64,000 nucleotides of DNA from Phytoactinopolyspora halotolerans (GTDB lineage Bacteria > Actinomycetota > Actinomycetes > Jiangellales > Jiangellaceae). The notes below the pieces were generated by a model. The model saw nothing but the letters and a program-made list of their open reading frames with translations, ran no database searches and was not told the origin of the DNA. Shown in pieces: positions 46,103 through 59,319 of the stretch. Numbering within the stretch: position 1 is the stretch's first letter; each line of letters begins with the position of its first letter. Position numbers and translations under genes: made by a program. The stretch spans positions 1-64,000 of the forward strand of contig NZ_JAAGOA010000003.1 of NCBI RefSeq assembly GCF_010550675.1, in the 5' to 3' direction.

Positions 46103-47125
46103 ATGGGCGAACGGGAGTTGCGGATCGGGATCGTCGGCGCCGGTGGCATTGTCCGGGAGCGTCACGTGCCGGGGTTCGGTGCGTTATCCGGTGTGCGGCT
46201 GGACGCGCTGGTCAACCGTACTCCGGAGTCGAGCCGACGGGCGGCCGCCGAGTTCGGTGTGCCGCGCGTCCACGCGAACTGGCGTGACCTGGTGACCGAT
46301 CCCGACCTTGACGCCGTCCTCGTCGGAACCTGGCCGTATCTGCACGCGCCGGTCACGCTTGCGGCGCTCGACGCGGGCAAGCACGTGCTCCTTCAGGCTC
46401 GCCTGGCGATGGACGCGGAGGAGGGCAGGGCCATCCGGGCGGCTGCTCTCGCTCATCCCGAGCTGGTCACCATGGTGGTGCCGGCGCCCTTCACGCTCTG
46501 GGCCGACGCGGCCATCCAGGAGCTCCTCGCTGACGGCGCGATCGGCGAGCTGCGCCTGGTACGTGCGTTCTGGGGCGGTGGCGACGGGGCGATGCGCACC
46601 TACCCGGGCTGGCGCCGGCAGCGCCGCTACAGCGGGAACAACGTGATGGAACTCGGGATCGTCTACGAAATGCTGGCGCGCTGGGTCGGCCATGCAGCCT
46701 GGGTGCAGGCGAGTGAGCAGACCTTCTCCGCGCGCAGCGAGCTCGGACCGGCGGACGTGCCCGATCTGGTGTCGGTGCACGCAGGCCTGCCGGGCGGAGC
46801 GCTGCTCAGCCTGGACATGAGTCCGCATGCGCGGTTCGCGGGGTCCAACGCCGTGCATCTGTTCGGCAGCGACGGCACGCTGGTGGTAGACATCGGCGGG
46901 CAGCGTCTCGTGCTGCGCCGGGAGGGTGACACGGGCCCGGTGGAGGAAGACGTCACCCCGGAACCGGATCGGCGTGGCGGCTGGCGCGTCGAAGAGGAAT
47001 TCCTCGGAGCGGTCCGCGGGACCGAGCAGGTACGGCTCACCGATGTCGACACGGCGGTGCGCTACATGGAGTTCACCGATGCGGCGCGCAGATCGGCCGC
47101 CGAGGGGAGACGAGTCACAGTATGA
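46103..47125 (+). CDS. Gfo/Idh/MocA-family protein with altered active site
   Basis: A 340-residue Rossmann dehydrogenase-like protein (LRIGIVGAGGIVRERHVPGF). In normal relatives the EKP motif supplies the catalytic Lys; here the same position reads VLLQARLAMDAEEG, and the usual D/E-x-G-x-H catalytic His segment reads NNVMELGIVYEMLARWVG. So both standard catalytic residues are missing. A sub-branch with a QAR motif exists in other genomes and may not be an oxidoreductase. The stop overlaps the start of the PLP enzyme gene (ATGA). Sugar or sugar-acid metabolism is suspected from the neighbouring sulfatase-transport operon. Confidence 0.82.
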   Translation: MGERELRIGIVGAGGIVRERHVPGFGALSGVRLDALVNRTPESSRRAAAEFGVPRVHANWRDLVTDPDLDAVLVGTWPYLHAPVTLAALDAGKHVLLQARLAMDAEEGRAIRAAALAHPELVTMVVPAPFTLWADAAIQELLADGAIGELRLVRAFWGGGDGAMRTYPGWRRQRRYSGNNVMELGIVYEMLARWVGHAAWVQASEQTFSARSELGPADVPDLVSVHAGLPGGALLSLDMSPHARFAGSNAVHLFGSDGTLVVDIGGQRLVLRREGDTGPVEEDVTPEPDRRGGWRVEEEFLGAVRGTEQVRLTDVDTAVRYMEFTDAARRSAAEGRRVTV

Positions 47126-48588
47126 CGATGAACGGTGACGACGAGTGGCTGATCGACTGGCGGTGCAAGAGCTTCCCGCCGTTGGCGGAGGGCACGCCCG
47201 CGTCGCAGATCGGCGAGGCGAAGTGGGATCTCTTGACCGACTTCACCACTCCGGTGGCGGCCCTCCAGGAGAGCGCGCTGGCGCACAATCTTGACCGCAT
47301 GCGGAGCTACTGCGCGGAGCATGGCGTCCGGATCGCTCCGCATGGCAAGACCACGATGTCGCCGGAATTGATCCGCCGCCAGCTGGAGCATGGTGCGTGG
47401 GCGATGACGGCGGCGACGGCATGGCAGGCGCGCGCGATGCTGACCTTCGGTGTGCCGCGGGTGATCATCGCCAATGAATGCATCGATCCCGTGGGTCTGC
47501 AATGGATCGTGCACTACATGTGGGTCAACCGCGACGCCGAGGTCTACGTCTTTGTGGACTCGATCGATGCCGTTGAGGCGATGCGGACGGCGATCCAGGA
47601 GAGCGTTGCGCGAGCGCGACGGCCGCGCAACCTGTCGTCCGCAACACCGTCGGAGCTGGCGACGAGCGCTACGGACGGTGCGCGTTCCATGCTGGACCGG
47701 ATCTCAGCACCGTCGGGCGATCCTGCGTCCGGAGGTTTTCCCGGCTTCCCGGGTTTTCCGCCGGTGGCGCGGCCGATTCCGGTGCTGGTGGAGGTCGGCG
47801 TCGTCGGCGGACGGGCTGGGGTGCGGGATGTCAGCACGGCTGTCGCCGTGGGGAGGGCCGTCGCACACGCGCCGGAGCTGGAGCTGGCGGGCGTCGGATG
47901 CTTCGAGGGCGTCCTCGGTGGCCGCCGGGTTCCCGAGGTGGTCGAGCCGGTCCGTGAGTTTCTCCGGACGACGCGACGCGTCGGCGAAGAGCTGATGGAC
48001 GCCGACGCGTTCCGGGCGGAGCGGCCGGTCATCCTGACCGCGGGCGGCAGCGCGTTCTTCGACCAGGTGGTGGACGTCTTCACCGCTGATCGCGAGCAGT
48101 ACCGGCGGCCGGTGGAGGTGGTGATCCGTTCCGGCTGTTATGTCACGCACGATCACTCGACGTATCGCGAGGCGTCACCCTTCCGGTCCGCCGGCGAGAG
48201 CGATTTCGTCCCGGCGATGCAGGTGTGGTCCCGGGTGTTGTCGACGCCCGAACCCGGACTGGCGATCATCGACGCCGGTAAGCGAGACATCTCCACGGAC
48301 GCGCGGATGCCGCTGGTGCTCGGGCGGTGGCGAGACGGGGTGTACCAGCCCTTCGGTGACGGCACCGGCGACGACGACGCGGGTGGCGCGGCGTCGGTGA
48401 TCGTCGACCGTTTCAACGATCAGCACGGCTACGTGCAGATGACCGGGGCGGGCACGCCTCCGCTGCGCGTGGGCGATCTGGTGGCTCTGGGCATCTCTCA
48501 CCCCTGCACCACCTTCGACAAGTGGCGCGTCATACCGGTTGTGGATGACGAACGACACGTGGTCGGTGCGGTGCGAACCTTCTTCTGA
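47122..48588 (+). CDS. Fold-type III PLP enzyme, D-serine dehydratase/D-threonine aldolase-like
   Basis: A 488-residue protein. The N-terminal alanine-racemase-like barrel has the PLP Lys76 in IAPHGKTTMSPELI. The C-terminal DSD1-like domain has ending YVTHDHSTY and VALGISHPCTTFDKW, where the His and Cys fit the metal site of D-serine dehydratase-like enzymes. An insert of about 65 residues (about 168-228), ending in a short FPGFPGFPP repeat, interrupts the barrel region. Probably deaminates or splits a D-amino acid or hydroxy-amino acid. Start overlaps the previous stop. Confidence 0.83.
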   Translation: MTMNGDDEWLIDWRCKSFPPLAEGTPASQIGEAKWDLLTDFTTPVAALQESALAHNLDRMRSYCAEHGVRIAPHGKTTMSPELIRRQLEHGAWAMTAATAWQARAMLTFGVPRVIIANECIDPVGLQWIVHYMWVNRDAEVYVFVDSIDAVEAMRTAIQESVARARRPRNLSSATPSELATSATDGARSMLDRISAPSGDPASGGFPGFPGFPPVARPIPVLVEVGVVGGRAGVRDVSTAVAVGRAVAHAPELELAGVGCFEGVLGGRRVPEVVEPVREFLRTTRRVGEELMDADAFRAERPVILTAGGSAFFDQVVDVFTADREQYRRPVEVVIRSGCYVTHDHSTYREASPFRSAGESDFVPAMQVWSRVLSTPEPGLAIIDAGKRDISTDARMPLVLGRWRDGVYQPFGDGTGDDDAGGAASVIVDRFNDQHGYVQMTGAGTPPLRVGDLVALGISHPCTTFDKWRVIPVVDDERHVVGAVRTFF

Positions 48589-48676
48589 CGGGCCGCTCCG
48601 TGCTGGTCGCGCCGTCTCGGACGTGCGCTGCCGGGCCGCATCGCGTAATCTGCTGGTGAGGCATCGCGGCAGAGGG

Positions 48677-48690
48677 ATTGGATCGGTCTA
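48677..48690. promoter_or_regulatory. LacI-type operator-like site at the lacI start
   Basis: ATTGGATCGGTCTA shares 9 of the 10 bases of GATCGATCTA with the perfect palindrome at 49929-49944. It abuts the GTG start of the lacI-family gene, suggesting autoregulation. Confidence 0.5.
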
Positions 48691-49737
48691 GTGGCGGGTT
48701 CCGGTGGGCGGTCGCGTCGAGTGACGCTCGCCGACGTCGCCGCGCATGCCGGGGTGTCGAGGGCGACGGCCTCACTTGTCCTGCGAGAGAGCCCGCTGGT
48801 GGCCGAGCAGACCAGGCAACGGGTTCTGGCCTCGGTCGAGGCGCTCGGTTACGTGTACAACCGGGGTGCGGCCAGCCTGCGTATGCGCAGGACCAACACG
48901 ATCGGCCTGGTCATCTCGGGGCTGGCGAACCCGTTCTTCGCCGACCTGACCGAAGGCGTGGAGGAGGAACTGCGCCCGGCCGGCTACGTCGTCCTGCTGG
49001 CGAACACGTTCGACGATCCGGCGCACCAGGACATGCTGATCCGCTCGATGATGGAGCACCAGATCGACGGGCTGCTGATCGTCGCGGCGGTGGACAGCGA
49101 CGCCGGATTCGTGACCCCGCTGCGGAACAATGGCGTTCCTCACGTGATGACGACCCGGCGCATCCGGGGTGTGCACGCCAGCTACGTCGGCCCCGATGAC
49201 GATGCGGGTGCTCGGCTGGCCACGCAGCATCTGCTCGACCACGGTGCCCGGGAACTGGCCTATTTCGGGGGCCCGGAACACGGCGTGGCGCGGATCGATC
49301 GCGTCGCGGCGATGGCGGCGCTGCTGGCGGAGAACGGGCTCGAGCCGGAGCCGAGCTGGACCGTACCATCCAGGGTCAGCAGCTCGGAGGGGTACGCGAT
49401 GGCGCGGAAGCTGCTTGAGCACGGCCCGCCCCCGGAGGCCGTCATCTGTCACAGCGATGCCATCGCGTTCGGGCTCATGCGGGCGCTGCGCGACGTCGGC
49501 GTGGAGATCGGTACCGGCTGCCGCGTGATCGGCTACGACGACGTCGAGCACGCTCAGGCCTGGTCACCGTCGCTGACTTCGGTGTCTGTGGCCGCGCGGA
49601 CTATGGGCCGGCGGGCTGCACGGATGCTGATGGAGCGGATCGAGGCGCCCGGCAGTTCACCCGAAGAGTCCCTGGTGTTGCGCCCATCGCTCGTCGTCCG
49701 CGAGTCGTGTGGGTGCCGGCCGTCGTCTGCTCATTGA
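48691..49737 (+). CDS. LacI-family transcriptional regulator
   Basis: A 348-residue repressor. The N-terminal LacI helix-turn-helix is VTLADVAAHAGVSRATASL with the hinge region GYVYNRGAASLRMRRTNTIGL. The periplasmic-binding-like sugar-sensing domain spans about 65-340. ICHSDAIAFGLMRALRD and IGYDDVEHAQAWSPSLTSV are typical late motifs. It lies directly upstream of the sugar-binding/permease/sulfatase operon, which carries a 16-bp palindrome at its ribosome-binding site; a related half-conserved site is at its own start. The inducer is expected to be a product of the imported carbohydrate. Confidence 0.93.
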   Translation: MAGSGGRSRRVTLADVAAHAGVSRATASLVLRESPLVAEQTRQRVLASVEALGYVYNRGAASLRMRRTNTIGLVISGLANPFFADLTEGVEEELRPAGYVVLLANTFDDPAHQDMLIRSMMEHQIDGLLIVAAVDSDAGFVTPLRNNGVPHVMTTRRIRGVHASYVGPDDDAGARLATQHLLDHGARELAYFGGPEHGVARIDRVAAMAALLAENGLEPEPSWTVPSRVSSSEGYAMARKLLEHGPPPEAVICHSDAIAFGLMRALRDVGVEIGTGCRVIGYDDVEHAQAWSPSLTSVSVAARTMGRRAARMLMERIEAPGSSPEESLVLRPSLVVRESCGCRPSSAH

Positions 49738-49928
49738 TGCGGCTCCCGCAGGGCCGCTGCCGGGGTTGAGAGCACCGGCCGATCGTGCCGGGGTGACGGC
49801 CTGCATCCCGTAAACATGCGATCCCGTCGCGCACCGGATTGCGGGGCTGGGGGTTTGCGCCCGGCCGTGTGTCGATCACGGTGCCGTCCTTGACAGTCCT
49901 GCTTCGGTGTGGTGCAGTATGCGGACGA

Positions 49929-49944
49929 TTTAGATCGATCTAAA
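49929..49944. promoter_or_regulatory. Perfect 16-bp operator palindrome of the sulfatase operon
   Basis: TTTAGATCGATCTAAA is fully self-complementary and ends where AGGAGG begins (AAAGGAGG at 49942-49949), 9 bases before ATG 49954. Repressor bound here would block transcription and cover the leader. Most likely target of the LacI protein. Confidence 0.75.
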
Positions 49945-49953
49945 GGAGGCACG

Positions 49954-51315
49954 ATGACTTCCGCACGATCGACGATGGGCCGCCGAGGGTTTCTCCGTGC
50001 GATGGCCGGCGCTGGCCTGTCCGTCCCCGCGCTCGGCGTCCTGTCCGCCTGCGGGGACGGTGGAGGCGGTGGCGGCAGCCTCGGGAGCGGCGGCTCCGGC
50101 GGTGGCGACGGCGAGGTGAGCGAGCTGATCGTGCCGACGGCTGAGACGCCATGGCTGCCGAGTTACCGCGACATCGTCGCCGACTACGAGCAGGAGACCG
50201 GCGTGAAGGTCACGCTGAAGACGTTCCCGATGGACGGACTCCTCACCCAGCAGGCGAACGCCATCCAGCAGCAGTCCGACGCGTTCGACGTCTTCCAGAT
50301 CAACGAGCGCTGGAGCGGGCAGTTCTACTCCAACGGCTGGGTGCAATCGCTGGCCGAGATCGATCCGGACTTCTCGTGGGAATCCAACCTCATGAGATTC
50401 GACGGCGTCGGGCAATGGGATGCGCAGCGGGCGATGACGTCGCCTGACGGCGAACCGATGGCACTGCCGATCAACGGCAACATCCTGCTCTTCGTCTACC
50501 GCAAAGACCTCTACGACGAGCTCGGACTGGAACTCCCGCAGACCTGGGACGAGTTGGTGGCCAACGGTGAGCAGGCGAAGGACGCCGGGGCAGTGGAGCA
50601 TGGCTACGTGCTGCGTGGGAAGACGCCGACCTTCGACTTCGAGTCGGTTCTCTATTCCTACGGTGGCTCCTGGTTCGCCGACGCGGAGGGCTGGACGCCG
50701 GCGATCACGTCGCCGGAGGCAGAGGAGGCTCTGGCCATGTTCGTCCGGATGGCCGAGCTCGGTCCCGCGGAACCGCAGACCGTGGCCCAGGCCGAGGCCG
50801 TGTCGGTCATGCAGTCCGGAGAGGCCTTGCAGGCGTGCCTGGTGGTGGCCGCGGCCGCGCCCCTGGAGGATGAGAACGCCTCCCTGACGGCCGGGAAGCT
50901 GGGCTATGCGGTCGTTCCAGGCGGGCCGGTCGACCAGACGCCGGTCTCCGGCACTTGGACCTTGGGCGTGCCGGCCGGGATCCCCGAGGAGCGGGCGCGG
51001 GCCGCGTACAACTTCATCACGTGGCTGACCGGCCAGGAAGCGATGCAGGCGTGGGCCGGATACGGCGGCGTGCCTACGCGCACCGACGTCTTGACCGAGG
51101 AGACGACCGAGCAGCGCCCCGAACTGGCCGCGATGATCGAGTCCGATCCGTTGATCCGTGCGCCGATCCGGTTCCCGTTCCAGGGGCAGATGCTGCAGTC
51201 GACGGAGCGGTACTTGGGCGAGGCTGTGGCGAAGTCGAAGACCGTACCGGAGACGCTCGCCGCCATCGAACAAGATCTGCGCAGAATCGTCGACGAGGAA
51301 GGACCCGACTCGTGA
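49954..51315 (+). CDS. ABC sugar-binding lipoprotein (CUT1)
   Basis: A 453-residue extracellular solute-binding protein of the SBP_bac_1 type. A twin-arginine start (MGRRGFLRAMAG) and a lipobox (LGVLSACGDG) show Tat export and lipid anchoring. A Gly-rich linker follows. The mature part (VSELIVPTAETPWLPSYRDIV, and later WLTGQEAMQAWAGYGGVPTR) is that of oligosaccharide-binding proteins. First gene of the operon with two permeases and two sulfatases, so the ligand is probably a sulfated oligosaccharide (inference). AGGAGG precedes ATG 49954. Confidence 0.92.
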   Translation: MTSARSTMGRRGFLRAMAGAGLSVPALGVLSACGDGGGGGGSLGSGGSGGGDGEVSELIVPTAETPWLPSYRDIVADYEQETGVKVTLKTFPMDGLLTQQANAIQQQSDAFDVFQINERWSGQFYSNGWVQSLAEIDPDFSWESNLMRFDGVGQWDAQRAMTSPDGEPMALPINGNILLFVYRKDLYDELGLELPQTWDELVANGEQAKDAGAVEHGYVLRGKTPTFDFESVLYSYGGSWFADAEGWTPAITSPEAEEALAMFVRMAELGPAEPQTVAQAEAVSVMQSGEALQACLVVAAAAPLEDENASLTAGKLGYAVVPGGPVDQTPVSGTWTLGVPAGIPEERARAAYNFITWLTGQEAMQAWAGYGGVPTRTDVLTEETTEQRPELAAMIESDPLIRAPIRFPFQGQMLQSTERYLGEAVAKSKTVPETLAAIEQDLRRIVDEEGPDS

Positions 51316-52262
51316 CGCTGGCCGCCGAGACGACGCGGGTGCGCAGTCCGCGTCCCAGCGGCGCCGGACGAGGACGGCGTCCGGTGCCGTGGTTCAAATA
51401 CCTGTCCGTCGCGCCGCTGGTGATCCTGCTGCTCGCGTTCGTCGGGTATCCCGTTTACGAGCTGGTGAAGACGTCGCTCGGAACGGTGCGGCTGGAGCAA
51501 GGCCAGTTCTTGTGGGAGTTCTCCGGCTTCGACAACTTCTCCCGGGTGTTCACCGACGATCTGTTCTTGACGTCGTTGAAGAACTCGCTGATCTTCATCC
51601 TGGCGACCGTTGCGCTGACACTGTTGTTCGGAATCGCCCTGGCCTTGATCGTGGACCGGGCGACCGGCCGGCTGCAGCGGGTGGCCCAGAACATCCTGAT
51701 CTGGCCGGCGATCGTCGCTCCGGTGGTGGTCAGCGTCGTGTGGCTGCTGATCCTCAGCCCGCAGATCGGTCTGCTGAACCGCGTCCTGGATTCGCTGGGC
51801 CTGCCCGAACAGGGCTGGCTGGGACAGCCGGTCGGCGCGATGGCCAGCGTGATCGCTGTGGACGTGTGGCACTGGACGCCGATCGTCTTCCTTCTGGTCT
51901 ACACGGCGCTGCGGGCGATCGACTCCAGTCTGCTGGAGGCGGCGCGGGTGGACGGCGCGACGTACTGGCAGACGCTGCGCTCGATCACGTTACCGATTCT
52001 GACGCCGGCGATCATCGGTGCGGCGGTGATCCGGATCATCATGGGGGTCAAGGTCTTCGACGAGATGTACCTGCTGACGTTCGGCGGCCCGGGCACCGCC
52101 ACCACGGTCATCAGCATCTACATCCGCAGCGTCTTCTTCGAGGACTTCAACTTCGGCTACGGTGCCGCGCTGAGCGTGACCGTGGTCGTCCTGGTGATGG
52201 CCGTCTTCCTGGTCGCCGTCGGGGTGCGCCGGATGACGCGGTCGGGAGGCCGCCGTGACTAG
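51312..52262 (+). CDS. ABC sugar permease 1 (CUT1, MalF-like)
   Basis: A 316-residue permease with about six membrane segments and the EAA loop LLEAARVDGATYWQTLRSIT (Gly of the consensus EAAxxDGA). It forms the channel with the second permease. GTG 51312 overlaps the binding-protein stop (GTGA). The N-terminal 25 residues are cytosolic and Arg-rich. No ATPase gene is in the operon, so a shared MsiK-type ATPase encoded elsewhere is assumed. Confidence 0.93.
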   Translation: MTLAAETTRVRSPRPSGAGRGRRPVPWFKYLSVAPLVILLLAFVGYPVYELVKTSLGTVRLEQGQFLWEFSGFDNFSRVFTDDLFLTSLKNSLIFILATVALTLLFGIALALIVDRATGRLQRVAQNILIWPAIVAPVVVSVVWLLILSPQIGLLNRVLDSLGLPEQGWLGQPVGAMASVIAVDVWHWTPIVFLLVYTALRAIDSSLLEAARVDGATYWQTLRSITLPILTPAIIGAAVIRIIMGVKVFDEMYLLTFGGPGTATTVISIYIRSVFFEDFNFGYGAALSVTVVVLVMAVFLVAVGVRRMTRSGGRRD

Positions 52263-53073
52263 TCGAGCCATCGTCCGGTTGCTGCTCATCGCCTCGCTGG
52301 TGATCACCGTCGTGCCGGTTGCCTGGATGATCCTGATCGCCTTCCAGACACCCCGCCGGATCATCGATCCGGACTGGGCGCTGGAACCGTCGTTGTACAG
52401 CTTCCAGGAGTTGTTCACCGCGGACGCCGTATACGGCCAGCAGGTGATCAACAGCGTGCTGATCGTGCTCGGAGCGACGCTGCTCTGCCTGGTGGTGGGA
52501 GCGTTCGCCGGCTATAGCCTCAGCCATCTGGGCTGGTCGAAGCGGACGACCATGGGCTTCCTCGCCGGGGCGGCGATGTTGCAGCTCATCCCGCCGATGA
52601 CGCTGATTCCGGGGCTGTATGTGGTGATGTCGAACTACGGCCTGCTCGGCAACGTGCAGGGGCTCATTCTGGCCAACACGGTGTTCAACTTGCCGTTCGC
52701 CACCATCATGATGAAGTTCTACTTCGATACCGTCCCGAGTGAGCTGCGGGAATCGGCGGCGATGGACGGCGCGAGCGAGTTGAAGACCTTCGCCCGCGTC
52801 ATGACGCCGCTGGCCGCCCCCGGTATCGCGGCGGTCGGCATCTTCACCGCGATCCAGGTGTGGAACGAGTTCCTCATGGGCTTGGTCTTCACCACCGGGG
52901 GGAGCGAGGCGCCGATCACGGTCGGCATCGCCACCCTCATCCAGCCGCAGGAGATCAAGTTCGGTCCGATGGCTGCGGTCGGAGTCATCACCGCGGTCCC
53001 GATCATCCTGCTGGTGATCGTCGCCAATCGACAGATCGTCGCCGGTCTGACCCGCGGCGCAGTGAAGGGTTGA
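52255..53073 (+). CDS. ABC sugar permease 2 (CUT1, MalG-like)
   Basis: A 272-residue permease with about six membrane segments and the EAA loop SELRESAAMDGASELKTFAR. The C-terminal FGPMAAVGVITAVPIILLVIV and ...AGLTRGAVKG ending are typical of MalG-type subunits. GTG 52255 overlaps the previous gene by 8 bases. Partner of permease 1. Confidence 0.93.
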   Translation: MTSRAIVRLLLIASLVITVVPVAWMILIAFQTPRRIIDPDWALEPSLYSFQELFTADAVYGQQVINSVLIVLGATLLCLVVGAFAGYSLSHLGWSKRTTMGFLAGAAMLQLIPPMTLIPGLYVVMSNYGLLGNVQGLILANTVFNLPFATIMMKFYFDTVPSELRESAAMDGASELKTFARVMTPLAAPGIAAVGIFTAIQVWNEFLMGLVFTTGGSEAPITVGIATLIQPQEIKFGPMAAVGVITAVPIILLVIVANRQIVAGLTRGAVKG

Positions 53074-53084
53074 TCGCTACAACC

Positions 53085-54401
53085 ATGCCGAGTCCGCATA
53101 TCGTCCTCATCCACTGTCACGACCTGGGAACCTGGCTGAGCTGTTACGACGCGCCGCATGCGCCGACGCCGAACCTGCAGCGCCTGGCCGACGAGGGCGT
53201 CGTGTTCGATGCCGCGTTCGCCACGTCTCCGCTGTGCACGCCGGCCCGTTCGGCGTTGTTCACCGGGATGTCCCCGCACCGCAATGGCTTGCAGGGGCTG
53301 ACTCATCACGGCTGGCGGTACGCCCCGGGGGTCCGGACGCTGCCGGAGCTCGCCCGAGACCGCGGCTATCGCACCACGCTGATCGGCTTGCAGCACGAGG
53401 ATCCGGACCCGTGCGTGCTGGGGTTCGACGAGGTGGTGGGTCTGGGCTTTCTGCCGCGAGCGCTGCAGGTGGGGCAAGAGAGCGTGGCCTGGTTCGCGCG
53501 GAACGGCCGGGGCGGCGACAGGCCCTATCTCGTGACCGTCGGCATGTGGGAGGCGCACCGGCCATGGCCGGTCGAGGACTATCCGCGGCCTCCGCGAGAC
53601 GAGGTCGACGTCTTGCCGTATCTCCCGGACAACGAACTGACACGGGAGGAGGTGGCCGGGATGTACGGATCGATTCAGCAGATCGACACGGCGGTCGGGA
53701 TGATCATCGATGCCATCGAACAGCACGGTGATCCGGAGAACACCCTGGTGGTGTTCACCACCGACCACGGTGCCGCCTTCCCGCGCGCGAAAGGCACGTT
53801 GTACGACCCGGGCGTCAAGGTAGCGATGATCACGCGCCCGCCCCGATCATGGCGGGTTCCGCCGGCGCGCGTATCGTCACTGGTCAGCCATCTGGATGTG
53901 GTGCCGACCGTGCTGGATCTGGCCGGTTCCGCGGTCGGGAGCCACTTTCCCGGCGCCGCGCAGCCTGGTGGTCTGGAGGGCCGTAGCCTGGCGCCCGAAC
54001 TGCGTGGCGCGTGGTCGGCGGACCCGGATCCGGGCCGGACGCTCTTCCTGCAGAAGACGTACCACGACGGCTACGATCCGATCCGGGCGGTGCGGACCCA
54101 GAGGTACAAGTACATCCGCAATTTCACACCGGGCCCGAAACTCCGGCTCAGCAAGGACCTGGAGGAGAGCCTGACCCGAAAGGGCATGGGCGATGCGCAT
54201 CTTCAGGCGCGTCCGGAGGAGGAACTTTACGTCCTCGAAGCCGACCCGTGGGAACAGTCCAACGTCGCGGACGATCCGGCGTGGGAACATGTCCGCATTC
54301 AGCTGGCGGATGAGCTCGATCGGTCGATGAAGGAGCTGAGAGATCCATTGCTCGACGGGCCGATCCCACCGCCGCCCGCACCGAACCGGCATCAGGAATG
54401 A
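53085..54401 (+). CDS. Sulfatase, Cys-type (arylsulfatase family) 1
   Basis: A 438-residue sulfatase of the alkaline-phosphatase fold. The formylglycine motif is SPLCTPARSALFTG, with Cys51 as the modified residue (C-x-P-x-R). The metal/active-site strand is IVLIHCHDLGTWLSCYDA, and the later Asp/His pair is FTTDHGAAFPRAK. No signal peptide, so cytosolic; it would act on imported sulfated sugars. It needs a formylglycine-generating enzyme, not present in this window. Second last gene of the operon; the stop overlaps the next start (ATGA). Confidence 0.9.
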   Translation: MPSPHIVLIHCHDLGTWLSCYDAPHAPTPNLQRLADEGVVFDAAFATSPLCTPARSALFTGMSPHRNGLQGLTHHGWRYAPGVRTLPELARDRGYRTTLIGLQHEDPDPCVLGFDEVVGLGFLPRALQVGQESVAWFARNGRGGDRPYLVTVGMWEAHRPWPVEDYPRPPRDEVDVLPYLPDNELTREEVAGMYGSIQQIDTAVGMIIDAIEQHGDPENTLVVFTTDHGAAFPRAKGTLYDPGVKVAMITRPPRSWRVPPARVSSLVSHLDVVPTVLDLAGSAVGSHFPGAAQPGGLEGRSLAPELRGAWSADPDPGRTLFLQKTYHDGYDPIRAVRTQRYKYIRNFTPGPKLRLSKDLEESLTRKGMGDAHLQARPEEELYVLEADPWEQSNVADDPAWEHVRIQLADELDRSMKELRDPLLDGPIPPPPAPNRHQE

Positions 54402-55864
54402 CGACGACGGCCGCCTCGGCGGCGGCGAGCGGAGAAGGAGGCGGCAGGCGGATGCAGCGGCCGAAGAACGTGATCTGGATCGTCACGGACCAGATGCGGG
54501 CGCAGACGACGGGATACGCCGGAGACCCGAACGTGTCGACGCCGAATCTGGACCGGTTGGCCGCCGAAGGCGTGAACTTCACCCGAGCGGTGGCGGGCAC
54601 CCCGCTGTGTTGTCCGTTCCGCGGCGCGATGGTGACCGGGCGGTATCCGCATAACAACGGCGTGACGGGTCATCGGGTACCCATGCCCGACGGCACCCGC
54701 ACCGTGGCGCACACGTTCGCCGACGCCGGGTACGCCACCTGCTATATCGGCAAGTGGCACTTGGATGGAGACCGCCCGGAGCTGGGCGACGCGGTGGAGG
54801 GCGAGCAGCACCATCGGGTCCGGATGATCCCGACTGAGCGCCGCGCCGGCTTCCAGGACTGGTGGGCGTACGAGAACAACAACCGTCCGTTCGACTGCCT
54901 GGTCCACACCGACGAGGGCCGGACACCATCGGGGATGCAGGTGCTCCGCGCGGCCGACGGGATGGAACAGTTCCGGCTGCCCGGTTACGAGGCGGATGCC
55001 TTGACCGACATCCTGCTCGGCTGGCTCGACGGCCGCGCCGGGACGGAGCAGCCGTTCTTCGCGGTGCTCTCGATGCAGCCTCCGCATAACCCGTATACCG
55101 CGCCGGCATCGGCGATGGCTCGGCACATGCCGGGCGACGTGCGGCTGCGCCCGAACGTCCCGGACATCGCGAAGATCACCGAGCGGGCGCGGCGCGACCT
55201 GGCCGGCTACTACGCGGCCATCGAACAGATCGATCACAACATCGGTCGGATCCGATCCCGGCTGCATGGGCTGGGGCTGGAGGAGGACACCTACCTGGTG
55301 TTCTTCTCCGACCATGGTGACCTGCACGGTTCGCACGGGCAGTGGCGCAAGACGGCCCCGTGGGAGGAAGCCGTCCGGATTCCGTTCCTGGTGGGCGGAC
55401 CGAGTCGCGAGCATCAAGACACGTGCCGGCTCGACGCGCCGCTGAACCACGTGGACATCGCACCGACCACGTTGGGCCTGTGTGGGTTGAGCGTGCCGGC
55501 AGAGATGGAAGGCATCGATTACAGCCGCGTGATCGACGGCGCGGGCGGACCCTCGTCGCCGACGGACTACCCGGAATCGGCGTACCTGAGCCTTCCGCTA
55601 CCGACGGGGCACCCGAGCAGTGTGGATCTGCCCTGGCGTGGTGTGGTGACCCGCGACGGGTGGAAGTATGTGCGCCTGGACGGCCGGCCGTGGCTGATGT
55701 TCAACCTGAACGATGACCCCTACGAGTGGGTGAATCTTGCCCATGATCCGGCGCACCACGCCGAGCGGACGGAGCTGGAGCTGCTGCTGCGGGAGTGGAG
55801 CCTGCATACGGGTGACCGGAGTGCGCTCGCGCGAGAAACCATCCACAGAGGTCAGGGTGGGTAG
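54398..55864 (+). CDS. Sulfatase, Cys-type (arylsulfatase family) 2
   Basis: A 488-residue sulfatase. The formylglycine motif is GTPLCCPFRGAMVTGRYPH (Cys in C-x-P-x-R), the N-terminal metal-binding strand is VIWIVTDQMRAQTTGYAG, and the later FFSDHGDLHGSHGQWRK supplies metal ligands. Its first about 18 residues are Ala/Gly-rich; no clear signal peptide, so probably cytosolic. Length and sequence differ from sulfatase 1, so the two may remove sulfate from different positions of one substrate (inference). Confidence 0.9.
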   Translation: MTTTAASAAASGEGGGRRMQRPKNVIWIVTDQMRAQTTGYAGDPNVSTPNLDRLAAEGVNFTRAVAGTPLCCPFRGAMVTGRYPHNNGVTGHRVPMPDGTRTVAHTFADAGYATCYIGKWHLDGDRPELGDAVEGEQHHRVRMIPTERRAGFQDWWAYENNNRPFDCLVHTDEGRTPSGMQVLRAADGMEQFRLPGYEADALTDILLGWLDGRAGTEQPFFAVLSMQPPHNPYTAPASAMARHMPGDVRLRPNVPDIAKITERARRDLAGYYAAIEQIDHNIGRIRSRLHGLGLEEDTYLVFFSDHGDLHGSHGQWRKTAPWEEAVRIPFLVGGPSREHQDTCRLDAPLNHVDIAPTTLGLCGLSVPAEMEGIDYSRVIDGAGGPSSPTDYPESAYLSLPLPTGHPSSVDLPWRGVVTRDGWKYVRLDGRPWLMFNLNDDPYEWVNLAHDPAHHAERTELELLLREWSLHTGDRSALARETIHRGQGG

Positions 55865-55873
55865 AAGTAGAGG

Positions 55874-55882
55874 TTATCCACA
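55874..55882 (+). promoter_or_regulatory. DnaA-box-like 9-mer
   Basis: TTATCCACA is the consensus DnaA box. A single copy, in the gap before the DUF4192 gene, inside GGTTATCCACATTC, which is repeated exactly at 62376-62389. Confidence 0.4.
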
Positions 55883-55934
55883 TTCTTCAACTCGGCCTGG
55901 ATGTCAGGGTTGAGCTTCGCCAAAATCAAGCAGC

Positions 55935-57011
55935 ATGAAAACAAAGCAAACAGCAGATACAGCAAGGATAAGCTCGCCGGCGGACGTTGTCGGGGTCATA
56001 CCTGCGATCCTGGGTTTCCATCCCAGCGAGAGTGTCGTTGTGCTCTGCCTGCACATGCCCACCAACCGTGCCGGGCTGGTCATGCGCGTAGATCTCCCGC
56101 AGCCGCGGGATTCTGAGCCGTTCGCTGCCGAGATGGCGGCACGGGTCGGGCGGGAGAACGCCGACGCCGTTGTCGTGGTCTGTTACACGGAGGAAGGAGA
56201 CTCATCCGGCGAGTTGCCTCGCCGGCACCTGATCGACCAATTCCTCGACGAGCTCTTCCTGCGTGATATCGGCTGCACCGAGGCACTTCTGGTCCGAGCG
56301 GATCGGTGGTGGTCGTACACATGTCACCGGCCGTGCTGTCCGGACAGTGGTACGCCGCTGCCGACGACGCCGACGGGTGCCGCCGTGGCCATCCAGGCGG
56401 AACGCGCCCTGGCCGGCGCAGCCGTATTGCCCGGGAGGGAGGCGCTCGAAGCCAGCGTGGAGGGGCCGGCAGGGGCGCGGAAGGTCAGTCTCGAGCAGCG
56501 ATTCGCGGCCGCGTGCGCCCAGCTCAGTGAGGAGGTGGGCCAGCGCGGAGCCGCCGCTGTGCGGCGGGATTCGTTGGCGGCGGTCACGGAGATGCGCGAT
56601 CGTTTCATGCGCGGGGACCGCGAGCTCGACGACGCTGATGCGGTCCGGGTGCTGGCCGGTCTCGAGGACAAGTGGGTCCGGGATGCCCTGGTGACGTGGG
56701 GACTCGATCAGCGTGGCGACGAGATTCAGGCGTTTCTGACTGTGCTGGCGCAGCACGCGGTCGATGACAGCTGCGCCGCCATCTGCACGGTCGTCGCAGC
56801 GGTCGCGTATCAGCAGGGGCATGGTGCGCTCGCGCTGGTTGCGCTCCAGCGTGCGCTGCGGGCGGAGCCGGAGTACCAGTTCGCGCTCTTGCTGGATTCG
56901 CTGCTCGATGCCCAGGTCAATCCGAGGGAGATCCGGGCGATGGCGCAGCGGGTCCGGCGTGAGTTGGTCGACCGTGGCATCGTGCAGGAGGCGAACGCGA
57001 CGCCGGTGTAG
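55935..57011 (+). CDS. DUF4192 protein
   Basis: A 358-residue actinobacterial protein. ISSPADVVGVIPAILGFHP and SESVVVLCLH begin the DUF4192 domain, then WWSYTCHRPCCPDSGTPLP with a Cys cluster, an Ala/Glu-rich helical middle, and a C-terminal TPR-like stretch (GALALVALQRALRAEPEYQF). Function unknown; the family is widespread in high-GC Gram-positives. It follows the sulfatases but has its own leader region, so it is not obviously part of that operon. Confidence 0.85.
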   Translation: MKTKQTADTARISSPADVVGVIPAILGFHPSESVVVLCLHMPTNRAGLVMRVDLPQPRDSEPFAAEMAARVGRENADAVVVVCYTEEGDSSGELPRRHLIDQFLDELFLRDIGCTEALLVRADRWWSYTCHRPCCPDSGTPLPTTPTGAAVAIQAERALAGAAVLPGREALEASVEGPAGARKVSLEQRFAAACAQLSEEVGQRGAAAVRRDSLAAVTEMRDRFMRGDRELDDADAVRVLAGLEDKWVRDALVTWGLDQRGDEIQAFLTVLAQHAVDDSCAAICTVVAAVAYQQGHGALALVALQRALRAEPEYQFALLLDSLLDAQVNPREIRAMAQRVRRELVDRGIVQEANATPV

Positions 57012-57097
57012 GGACGGCAGGCAGCCTGCCGCGAGGGCACGCGGACCCCGTCCGAGCGTCGCCGATATCGTGGTGAATCAGCTGCCGTGAGGAGACC

Positions 57098-58111
57098 ATG
57101 CAGATGACATCGGATGCCGTACGCGAACACGAGTCGGCGGGCCAGGCGCTGGAACCGATGCCGGTGGACCGGGTGGCGGAGCTGGGTGACGCCGTGTTGG
57201 CCGAGGTGGGCGGCGCTGTCGTGGGTATGGAGAAGACGCTCCGCATGGCGCTGGCGGCGATCCTCGCCGGTGGGCATGTGCTCTTCGAGGACGTACCCGG
57301 CTTGGGGAAGACGCTTGCCGCTCGCAGCCTGTCCGGTGCGCTCGGCCTCGAGTTCCGCCGGCTGCAATGTACGCCCGATCTGCTTCCCGGGGATGTGACC
57401 GGCTCATACGTCTGGGACCCGGGGCCGCGCGAGTTCTCCTTCCGGCCAGGGCCGCTGTTCACCGGTTTGCTGCTGGCCGACGAGATCAACCGGACGCCGC
57501 CGAAGACGCAGTCCGCGCTACTGGAGGCGATGGCGGAGAAGCAGATCACGGTGGAGGGTACGACGTTCGCGCTTGACCGGCCGTTCCATGTGCTGGCCAC
57601 CTCGAATCCGGTCGAGTACGAAGGCACGTACCCGCTGCCGGAGGCGCAACTCGACCGCTTCATGCTCCGGTTGTCCGCCGGCTACCTGGACCCGGCTAGG
57701 GAGGTGGACGTGCTGGTCCGGCGGGTGGCTCGGCGGCAGGAGGAGACCCACGTCTCGGCTGTCGTCGACGCGCAGACCGTGCTCGCGCTCCAGGCCGGAA
57801 TCGAGGCCGTGGACGTGGACCCGTCGATCATCGCCTATTGCGTGGATCTCGCCACCGCCACCCGGAGACACCGTGCGGTGGAGGTCGGTGCGTCGCCGCG
57901 CGGATCTCAGGCGCTGTTGCTGACGGCCAGATCGCTGGCGGTTCTGGACGGGCGAGACTATGTCGTGCCCGAAGACGTGAAGGAGGTCGCGGTGCCGGCC
58001 CTCGCACATCGGCTGACGTTGACGCCCGAGGCGTGGACGACCCAGGTCAGCACGGTGACGATCGTCAACGAGATCCTCGATCAAGTGGCGGGTCCCGCTG
58101 CCGATCGATAA
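57098..58111 (+). CDS. MoxR-type AAA+ ATPase
   Basis: A 337-residue AAA_3 ATPase. Walker A is FEDVPGLGKTLAAR, Walker B is LLADEINRTPPKTQSALLEAM, and sensor 1 and 2 regions (VLATSNPVEYEGTYPLPEA, and later ASPRGSQALLLTARSLAV) are complete. MoxR ATPases usually act with DUF58 and von Willebrand proteins that are encoded next to them; here none is, and a Gfo/Idh gene follows. RBS GAGGAG precedes ATG 57098. A chaperone-like role in complex assembly is assumed from the family. Confidence 0.92.
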   Translation: MQMTSDAVREHESAGQALEPMPVDRVAELGDAVLAEVGGAVVGMEKTLRMALAAILAGGHVLFEDVPGLGKTLAARSLSGALGLEFRRLQCTPDLLPGDVTGSYVWDPGPREFSFRPGPLFTGLLLADEINRTPPKTQSALLEAMAEKQITVEGTTFALDRPFHVLATSNPVEYEGTYPLPEAQLDRFMLRLSAGYLDPAREVDVLVRRVARRQEETHVSAVVDAQTVLALQAGIEAVDVDPSIIAYCVDLATATRRHRAVEVGASPRGSQALLLTARSLAVLDGRDYVVPEDVKEVAVPALAHRLTLTPEAWTTQVSTVTIVNEILDQVAGPAADR

Positions 58112-58149
58112 TGGGCGTATCAGGTGTGGCCCACGGACGAGGAGGGTTG

Positions 58150-59319
58150 GTGCAGGTGAGGGATGCCGGGACAGTCGTGGCGCTGATCGGGGTGCGCGGC
58201 TTCGGGCGCACGTATCTGGGGCCGTTGGAGAATCTGGTGGCGCGGGAAGAGGCCCGGTTCGCGGGCGGCTGTGACATCAATCCGGAGGCCGGCGCAGATC
58301 TGCCAGCCGGAACGGTGTTCTACGACGATCACAAGAAGATGCTGGAATCGTGTCACCCGGACATCACGATCGTCGCGACGCCGCCGCACACGCACTTCCA
58401 GTTGGCCGTGGACGCTCTCGAGGTGGGCAGCGACGTGCTGTTGGAGAAGCCTCCCGTCGTCTCGACCTCGCAGCACGCGAGACTCGCGGCGGCGGTACGG
58501 AGCAGCGGGCGGCTGTGCCAGGTCGGGTTCCAGGCCATGGCCGGGGAACCGATGCAGCGGCTGTTGGCACTGGTCGCGGATGGTGCCATCGGTGCGGTGA
58601 CGGACATCGCGGTGACCGGGCAGTGGATCCGGCTGGACGAGTACTATCGGCGGTCGCCGTGGGCCGGTCATCGGCACCTGGACGGCATCGTGGTGGCTGA
58701 CGGTGTGTCGACGAATCCGTTCGCGCATCCGGTCATGAACGCGCTGGCGGTCGCCCAAGCCGACGACCCGGAAGCGACCCCCGTGGCGCTGGAGGTGGAG
58801 AGTTACCGGTGCCGGGACATCGCCACGGACGACACCGTGAGCGCCCGCGTGCATCTGAGCAACGGAAAGCGCATTCACATCGCGCTCACGCTGTGCGCGG
58901 AGGAGATCGTCGAACCCGTCGTCACGGTGCACGCGACCGGTGGCGTGGCACGGCTGGGGAACACCGGCACCACGCTGACGATCGACGGCGTCGTCCAGGA
59001 CGTCTCCGCGGAGCGCGGACGCCCGCTGGACAATCTGCTGGCGCACCGCCGGGACCCAGAACGAGCACCGTTGATGGTGTCCCTGGAGCGCACGGCGGCG
59101 TTCACCGCTTATCTGGAAGGGATGCTGAACTCACCGGCTCCGCTCCGGGTGCCGTCGGAGTTTCTTCGGCAGCGCCCGGAGGAAGGCTCGCGGCGTGTGA
59201 TTCTCACCGGCATCAACCAGGCCATATCGACGGCCGGAGAGGAGCTGGCGCTCTTCTCGGAGCTGGGCTTGAAGTGGGCCCGGCCGCCGGCATCGGTTCC
59301 ACTCGGGCGAGCTGAATGA
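58150..59319 (+). CDS. Gfo/Idh/MocA-family oxidoreductase
   Basis: A 389-residue dehydrogenase. The Rossmann start is VVALIGVRGFGRTYLGPLEN; the catalytic-Lys motif is intact (VLLEKPPVVSTSQH). The C-terminal domain is longer than usual for this family. GTG 58150 is preferred because GAGGAGGG lies just upstream; ATG 58111 would overlap the moxR stop (TAATG) and add 13 residues. Probably oxidises a sugar or sugar-acid. A companion Gfo/Idh gene lies at 61186-62205. Confidence 0.85.
   Translation: MQVRDAGTVVALIGVRGFGRTYLGPLENLVAREEARFAGGCDINPEAGADLPAGTVFYDDHKKMLESCHPDITIVATPPHTHFQLAVDALEVGSDVLLEKPPVVSTSQHARLAAAVRSSGRLCQVGFQAMAGEPMQRLLALVADGAIGAVTDIAVTGQWIRLDEYYRRSPWAGHRHLDGIVVADGVSTNPFAHPVMNALAVAQADDPEATPVALEVESYRCRDIATDDTVSARVHLSNGKRIHIALTLCAEEIVEPVVTVHATGGVARLGNTGTTLTIDGVVQDVSAERGRPLDNLLAHRRDPERAPLMVSLERTAAFTAYLEGMLNSPAPLRVPSEFLRQRPEEGSRRVILTGINQAISTAGEELALFSELGLKWARPPASVPLGRAE

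Follow-up and report, generated by a model that had tools for sequence, protein, structure and literature searches.

We have examined a group of six genes in the actinobacterium Phytoactinopolyspora halotolerans, whose 7.30 Mb genome is assembled in 65 contigs. The genes lie within the initial 64 kb of contig C23 (NZ_JAAGOA010000003.1; hereafter the window), and we propose, with a probability of roughly 0.6, that they constitute a regulon consisting of one operon, for a small sulfated sugar that is imported intact and desulfated in the cytosol. In the mechanism that we infer, a LacI-family repressor would occupy the palindrome TTTAGATCGATCTAAA just upstream of the gene for a solute-binding protein (SBP) and keep the operon silent until LacI is bound by the sugar or one of its derivatives. 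The SBP, a Tat lipoprotein, would bind the sulfated sugar at the cell's exterior, and two permeases (PermA and PermB), powered by a shared ATPase of the MalK/MsiK type encoded elsewhere, would bring it in unaltered. A first sulfatase (Sulf1), matured by a formylglycine-generating enzyme (FGE), would then take off a sulfate in the cytosol, most likely at position 2 (2-O or 2-N), and a second (Sulf2) would take off another, after which the desulfated sugar may pass to general metabolism and the sulfate may be assimilated or exported.

All six genes lie on the forward strand, and Pfam together with the CxPxR motifs confirms the content given in the original prediction (a LacI regulator, a binding lipoprotein, two permeases and two Cys-type sulfatases), at coordinates that needed only small corrections to overlap and gap lengths. 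The repressor gene (48691..49737, with an alternative start at 48721) encodes a helix–turn–helix domain (PF00356) and a periplasmic-binding-like domain (Peripla_BP_3; PF13377/PF00532). The sugar-binding SBP (49954..51315; SBP_bac_1, PF01547), a predicted Tat-type lipoprotein in which RRGFLR and an LSAC lipobox can be read, and the two BPD_transp_1 permeases (PF00528), PermA (51312..52262; top NCBIfam model UgpA) and PermB (52255..53073; top models GlcU and MalG), each model scoring under its cut-off, would form an importer of the CUT1 type, with a presumed ATPase encoded outside the operon. Both sulfatases combine PF00884 with the C-x-P-x-R signature of S1 formylglycine enzymes, CTPAR in Sulf1 (53085..54401, with 53085 the most likely start) and CCPFR in Sulf2 (54452..55864). 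For the latter we prefer the ATG at 54452, which has the better ribosome site (AAGGAGG), over the alternative start at 54398; the junction with Sulf1 is accordingly a 50-bp gap or, from 54398, a 4-bp overlap. There is an overlap of 4 bp between the SBP and PermA genes and one of 8 bp between PermA and PermB, and 11 bp separate PermB from Sulf1, so that the tight packing first described holds from the SBP to the sulfatases but not for LacI, which is set apart by a 216-bp spacer in which a perfect palindrome follows a TTGACA box. As had also been stated, a Pfam scan of the block's proteins finds no glycoside hydrolase or lyase among them.

The palindrome (49929..49944) is a perfect 16-bp candidate operator with a central CG, 9 bp ahead of the SBP start. 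A putative promoter (49890..49920) can be read just before it, with TTGACA at 49890–49895, a 19-nt spacer and CAGTAT at 49915–49920; a promoter/terminator scan, restricted to 16–18 nt spacers, found no consensus promoter, and, by inspection, three other loci (L134, L135 and L153) also have TTGACA or TTGACG ahead of the operator. TTTAGATCGATCTAAA is the sole site in the 7.3 Mb genome at two or fewer mismatches, and at that threshold its regulon is a single operon; when the window was shuffled 100 times with dinucleotides preserved, two of the shuffles held a match at three or fewer mismatches. We then compared 24 loci, namely the window, L114 and 22 loci obtained by scanning named genomes with a Sulf1 alignment, searching the 250 bp ahead of one chosen structural gene in each (SBP, first permease or Sulf1). 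Of the 13 loci that have a LacI relative, 10 hold the core TAGATCGATCTA with at most one mismatch (several of these ten being close kin and hence not independent cases), as against none of the 11 that lack one. Three mismatches separate the best match from the core in the remaining three LacI-bearing loci and in two of those without LacI, and five or six in the other nine. The candidate operator goes with the regulator and not with the sulfatase, a footprint that supports LacI control as originally predicted.

Neither sulfatase shows a hydrophobic export segment, even from the furthest in-frame start, a result that bears out the originally noted lack of clear signal peptides. Localization was judged by hydropathy and inspection rather than by SignalP, taking the furthest in-frame start within 120 residues and the 15-residue mean hydropathy ahead of the first catalytic strand. 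By this measure no hydrophobic segment precedes that strand in 21 Sulf1 proteins (the window and 20 relatives) or in three Sulf2 proteins, window included (mean at most 0.83 in the whole set), and most of the proteins tested have fewer than 15 residues of room there, the first strand of the Sulf1 model beginning at residue 5. A plain hydropathy score does not by itself split sulfatases from SBPs (some own-genome sulfatases reach 1.73 and an SBP 1.53), the hydrophobic character of the first catalytic strand being the cause. The 22 of 24 other sulfatase places in the genome that were examined likewise show no hydrophobic segment (best 1.07), so that cytosolic desulfation looks, from sequence, like the rule in P. 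halotolerans. The same contig offers a strong FGE match (431089–431928), and a second, weaker one lies elsewhere in the genome.

The likely position of attack is suggested by the closest characterized relatives of Sulf1. Among PDB entries its best match by sequence is S1_8A (E 1.2e-38), with human sulfamidase (SGSH) next and the same order by profile, whereas its AlphaFold model (pLDDT 90.8) is closest in fold to the sulfamidase 4mhx (Z 44.6, rmsd 2.2, 406 residues), followed by S1_8C (Z 41.1), an S1_25 module (40.1) and S1_8A (39.0). Both rankings hint at SulfAtlas subfamily S1_8 as a possible placement, S1_8A and SGSH being best by sequence and SGSH and S1_8C by fold. According to published accounts, S1_8B and S1_8C are 2-O-sulfatases of galactose-2-sulfate, S1_8A is a monosaccharide-specific 2-O-sulfatase, and further S1_8 enzymes are sulfohydrolases of xylose-2-sulfate and N-sulfoglucosamine, all the activities cited there being at sugar position 2 (PMC12549532); SGSH and the Pedobacter heparinus N-sulfamidase are both classed in S1_8 (PMC5066984).

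The genes that accompany Sulf1 relatives point to a small substrate. These relatives occur with four kinds of transporter: the homologous CUT1 importer, a different ATP-binding cassette (ABC) importer (H. alba, L136), major facilitator superfamily (MFS) Sugar_tr porters (L139 and L150) and a phosphotransferase system (PTS) of the mannose type. The last is found in L042 (G011, of the same family), where a Sulf1 72–74% identical to that of the window belongs to one same-strand string with short gaps in the order IIA, IIC, IID, NagA, IIB, GntR, TauE, Sulf1 (NCBIfam identified IIB, IID and NagA, Pfam identified GntR and TauE, and IIA and IIC were assigned by eye). In L147 an aldose 1-epimerase (Aldose_epim) lies directly 3' of Sulf1. 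Considering the PTS with NagA, the MFS porters, the epimerase and the match to the monosaccharide-specific S1_8A, a small sugar is indicated, and with the Stf0 genes near more distant relatives (see below) also taken into account, a small, probably 2-sulfated sugar fits better than the oligosaccharide originally envisaged, which these partners do not support. N-sulfoglucosamine (GlcNS), galactose-2-sulfate and trehalose-2-sulfate are each a possible substrate, the leading candidates being a sulfated glucosamine (GlcNS or GlcNS6S) or another 2-sulfated monosaccharide. A TauE/SafE gene belongs to the Sulf1 string not only in L042 but also in L114 (G050), where it follows two sulfatases; these two cases, the FGE relatives present in 11 of the 22 named loci and the lack of signal peptides together argue for import before desulfation, as first suggested.

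The arrangement exceeds chance, as judged by the gene order kept elsewhere. In a survey of 393 genomes of the class (E ≤1e-60, own genome included in each count), the SBP is present in 8, Sulf1 in 39 and Sulf2 in 7, and in each of the eight genomes a sulfatase lies no more than 5 kb from the SBP; as background, 7 of 100 PF01547 places in the P. halotolerans genome (the SBP of the operon included) lie within 5 kb of any of its 26 sulfatase places. The 22 named loci, of which the nearest by Sulf1 are in Phytoactinopolyspora and other Jiangellaceae, span that family, Micrococcaceae, Cellulomonadaceae, Microbacteriaceae, Propionibacteriaceae, Dermabacteraceae, Pseudonocardiaceae and Micromonosporaceae, together with one actinobacterial metagenome-assembled genome and one contig labelled Burkholderia. 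A homologous SBP with one or both permeases accompanies Sulf1 in 14 of the 22 and a LacI relative (at least 195 bits) in 11, counts that, like that of FGE, are lower bounds as contig ends cut some loci. Among these loci only Phytoactinopolyspora endophytica has the exact order LacI-SBP-PermA-PermB-Sulf1-Sulf2, with LacI to Sulf1 also kept in Cellulomonas fimi SB and in G050 (L114), which belongs to a different family; elsewhere a different second sulfatase occurs (SulfC in L114, L144, L151, L137, L143 and L138), or the sulfatases number four or five, or Sulf1 stands alone. In the Sulf1 tree a clade of 25 is supported (100/99), within which the window pairs with P. endophytica inside a five-row group that also holds the PTS and other-ABC orthologues. 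The claim that the arrangement is uncommon in actinobacteria therefore stands for the SBP clade (8/393), but not for the cassette, which recurs in several families, nor for sulfatases without signal peptides, given those found across this genome. Overall, LacI control, import first and the absence of a hydrolase are upheld from the original interpretation, and the oligosaccharide and half of the argument from rarity are not.

Several observations weigh against our proposal. Residues 101–105 of Sulf1 read GxQHE instead of GKxH in 21 of 21 proteins of the clade, the GKxH lysine being found in none of them, while the same alignment shows GKxH kept in Sulf2 (GKWH) and in five other sulfatases; the sulfate site of Sulf1 is therefore, on sequence, atypical, the lysine being usual in, though not strictly defining of, S1 formylglycine sulfatases. 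The sugar itself is left unfixed, since sequence and structure rank different relatives first (the galactose-2-sulfatase S1_8A and the sulfamidase, respectively). The ATPase partner is deduced from four OB_MalK matches elsewhere in the genome and is thus a presumed one, and PDB relatives of the SBP include disaccharide and polyol binders. Eight of the 22 Sulf1 loci lack a homologous importer within the DNA examined and their partners vary, four sulfatases occur in L137 and L143 and five in L138, and these multi-sulfatase loci, with the rhamnose genes of L122 described below, suggest that substrates vary across the clade.

A more specific version of our proposal, which we put forward tentatively and as rather less than an even chance, is that Sulf1 is a bacterial sulfamidase acting in the cytosol, the operon serving as a dedicated route for free GlcNS (GlcNS6S via Sulf2) derived from heparan-like glycans. 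On this reading, in the L042 string NagA would take an N-acetyl group, and Sulf1 an N-sulfo group, off one and the same nitrogen at position 2, with GlcN-6-phosphate as the product in either case. Scavenging of trehalose-2-sulfate is a sister reading, raised because more distant Sulf1 relatives (40–45% identity) adjoin the trehalose 2-sulfotransferase Stf0. This is so in 8 of 14 loci with flanks of about 1.5 kb (the loci concerned are among L119, L120, L130, L131, L118 and L091–L104), four of five scanned Stf0 proteins passing the NCBIfam trehalose 2-sulfotransferase cut-off and the fifth just missing it; in L118 an FGE is present and Stf0 lies ~6 kb away. The Stf0 proximity suggests that the adjoining Sulf1-like enzymes could be trehalose-2-sulfate sulfatases.

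It is conceivable, though we consider it rather improbable, that a sulfated oligosaccharide freed by secreted enzymes elsewhere is imported, desulfated in the cytosol and cleaved by hydrolases whose genes lie away from the operon. Oligosaccharides are frequent cargo of CUT1 importers, and about 75 kb from the operon (C23:124001–152000; L064 and L065) there is another sulfatase–ABC cluster, with five sulfatases, two GH2 enzymes, CUT1 genes and galK/galE/galT-like genes, perhaps a sulfated-galactan cluster; the genome also has four Hepar_II_III matches over the cut-off (best 56.5 bits). Against this, the regulon has one site, the block is without a hydrolase, the PTS, MFS and mutarotase partners of the relatives suit monosaccharides, and only one GH88 match, a weak one, occurs genome-wide. 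A glycosaminoglycan (GAG) lyase route is likewise not favoured, the one weak GH88 and the four partial Hepar_II_III matches (on C4, C6, C26 and C10) all lying outside the window. Nor was homology of the SBP decisive for the substrate, as a profile search of the PDB returned a scatter of matches, with the trehalose/maltose-binding protein and sugar or sorbitol binders at the top.

We think it unlikely that the operon serves sulfur scavenging, with sulfate esters imported for their sulfur and the carbon skeleton incidental. The Stf0 neighbours of the distant Sulf1 relatives (joined in L119 by CysD and CysNC) speak for it, and a possible parallel is a probable sulfatase of Rhodococcus IGTS8, part of a sulfatase-CysNC-CysD-Stf0 cluster, which was more abundant in dibenzothiophene than in sulfate cultures (PMC8557817). 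However, the regulator belongs to the LacI family and not to the known sulfur regulators, the TauE/SafE genes in the strings of two relatives suggest surplus rather than scarce sulfate, and the relatives have sugar-catabolic partners. Least probable, and in our view very improbable, is that these enzymes of the promiscuous PF00884 family act on a non-sugar ester (aryl, choline-like or phosphonate): partial similarity to the arylsulfatase, choline-sulfatase and PehA models and the missing GKxH lysine of Sulf1 speak for it, but those models score far below their cut-offs (no NCBIfam equivalog exceeds its cut-off for either sulfatase), the importer is of the sugar CUT1 type and sugar genes adjoin the relatives.

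Import followed by intracellular desulfation is a strategy already described for Bifidobacterium breve and suggested for Streptobacillus, so that the idea of an undescribed system holds for the cassette, of which we found no description in the literature searched, but not for the strategy. The GlcNAc-6-sulfate locus of B. breve UCC2003 (Bbr_0846–0853) resembles the present case in that an actinobacterium uses a sulfated monosaccharide by means of an intracellular sulfatase, its locus also holding nagA, nagB and a sugar transporter, and differs in having atsB (an Fe-S oxidoreductase) and a transport protein of the glucose/fructose type (PMC7326374, PMC6045583). Here maturation would instead fall to an FGE encoded at another place in the genome, import to a CUT1 ABC system, regulation to LacI and desulfation to an SGSH/S1_8-like enzyme; the ten proteins scanned at 46103–59316 include neither an atsB-type enzyme nor a nag gene product, radical-SAM proteins elsewhere in the genome not having been sought. 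In Streptobacillus moniliformis (Smon0120–0128), an ABC importer accepts a sulfated GAG disaccharide and the sulfatase is predicted to be cytoplasmic, a combination also predicted here; there the importer takes up lyase-made unsaturated disaccharides and the cluster encodes PL8, PL12 and GH88 (PMC5430744), whereas Pfam finds no PL8 or PL12 lyase and no GH88 in the present block. S1_8A, S1_8B and S1_8C of the lambda-carrageenan polysaccharide utilization locus of Pseudoalteromonas distincta U2A, the first of which is the best solved sequence match to Sulf1, are described as having predicted signal peptides and working in a cascade with GH150, GH110 and GH2 enzymes (PMC12549532), and the P. heparinus N-sulfamidase as periplasmic (PMC10154612). 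By structure alignment Sulf1 is 25–30% identical to the P. distincta enzymes. SGSH, the closest fold, is 28% identical and has GKKH in place of the GxQHE of the Sulf1 clade; the human enzyme is lysosomal. The present cassette departs from the B. breve and Streptobacillus systems in its regulator, its importer, the enzyme used for maturation and the clade of its sulfatase, and it is without lyase and GH88.

A cassette comprising repressor, operator, importer, sulfatase and FGE offers a testable case of how actinobacteria could use sulfated sugars without exporting sulfatases, in contrast to the periplasmic model of Bacteroidota. With a position-2 specificity predicted and an operator defined, the search for the substrate becomes straightforward. 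Related gene sets in several actinobacterial families may represent a little-described way of eating sulfated sugars. Were the sulfamidase route true, it would be a dedicated use of free N-sulfoglucosamine from heparan-like glycans, and the Stf0 link of the distant relatives proposes an enzyme that would desulfate trehalose-2-sulfate.

For Sulf2 we assign only a second sugar sulfatase. By sequence its top matches are 6j66 and 8di0, pointing to chondroitin sulfatases and the Bacteroides protein yidJ, and no subfamily could be taken from its model (pLDDT 80.7), for which S1_25, yidJ, 6j66 and 6s21 lead, all within 2.5 Z; relatives of at least 70% identity occur in two other genomes of the 393 (G018 and G020).

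Some further loci deserve mention. In L122 (3392–17387), a stretch with 46% GC in a genome of 1.5 Mb, an FGE-like gene, related SBP and permeases and two sulfatases lie alongside an L-rhamnose pathway (isomerase and aldolase above NCBIfam cut-offs, mutarotase and kinase below), which suggests a cluster for uptake of sulfated rhamnose. We do not extend rhamnose to the window, as the L122 SBP is just 35–37% identical and no Sulf1 orthologue was seen there. Upstream of LacI (46103–48588), a Gfo/Idh oxidoreductase gene overlaps one whose D-serine-dehydratase/BhcC-like product contains a low-complexity insertion. This pair, not found at the corresponding place in P. endophytica, was excluded from the operon because a mutY-like gene lies directly beside LacI there. 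On the contig labelled Burkholderia multivorans WS-FJ9 (L139:10001–13558), Sulf1 is accompanied by an MFS sugar porter with an apparently broken frame, an FGE domain sharing one open frame with the start of the porter. Finally, five of the 22 named loci (L138, L141, L148, L153 and L155) have a DUF3604 homologue in the vicinity of Sulf1.

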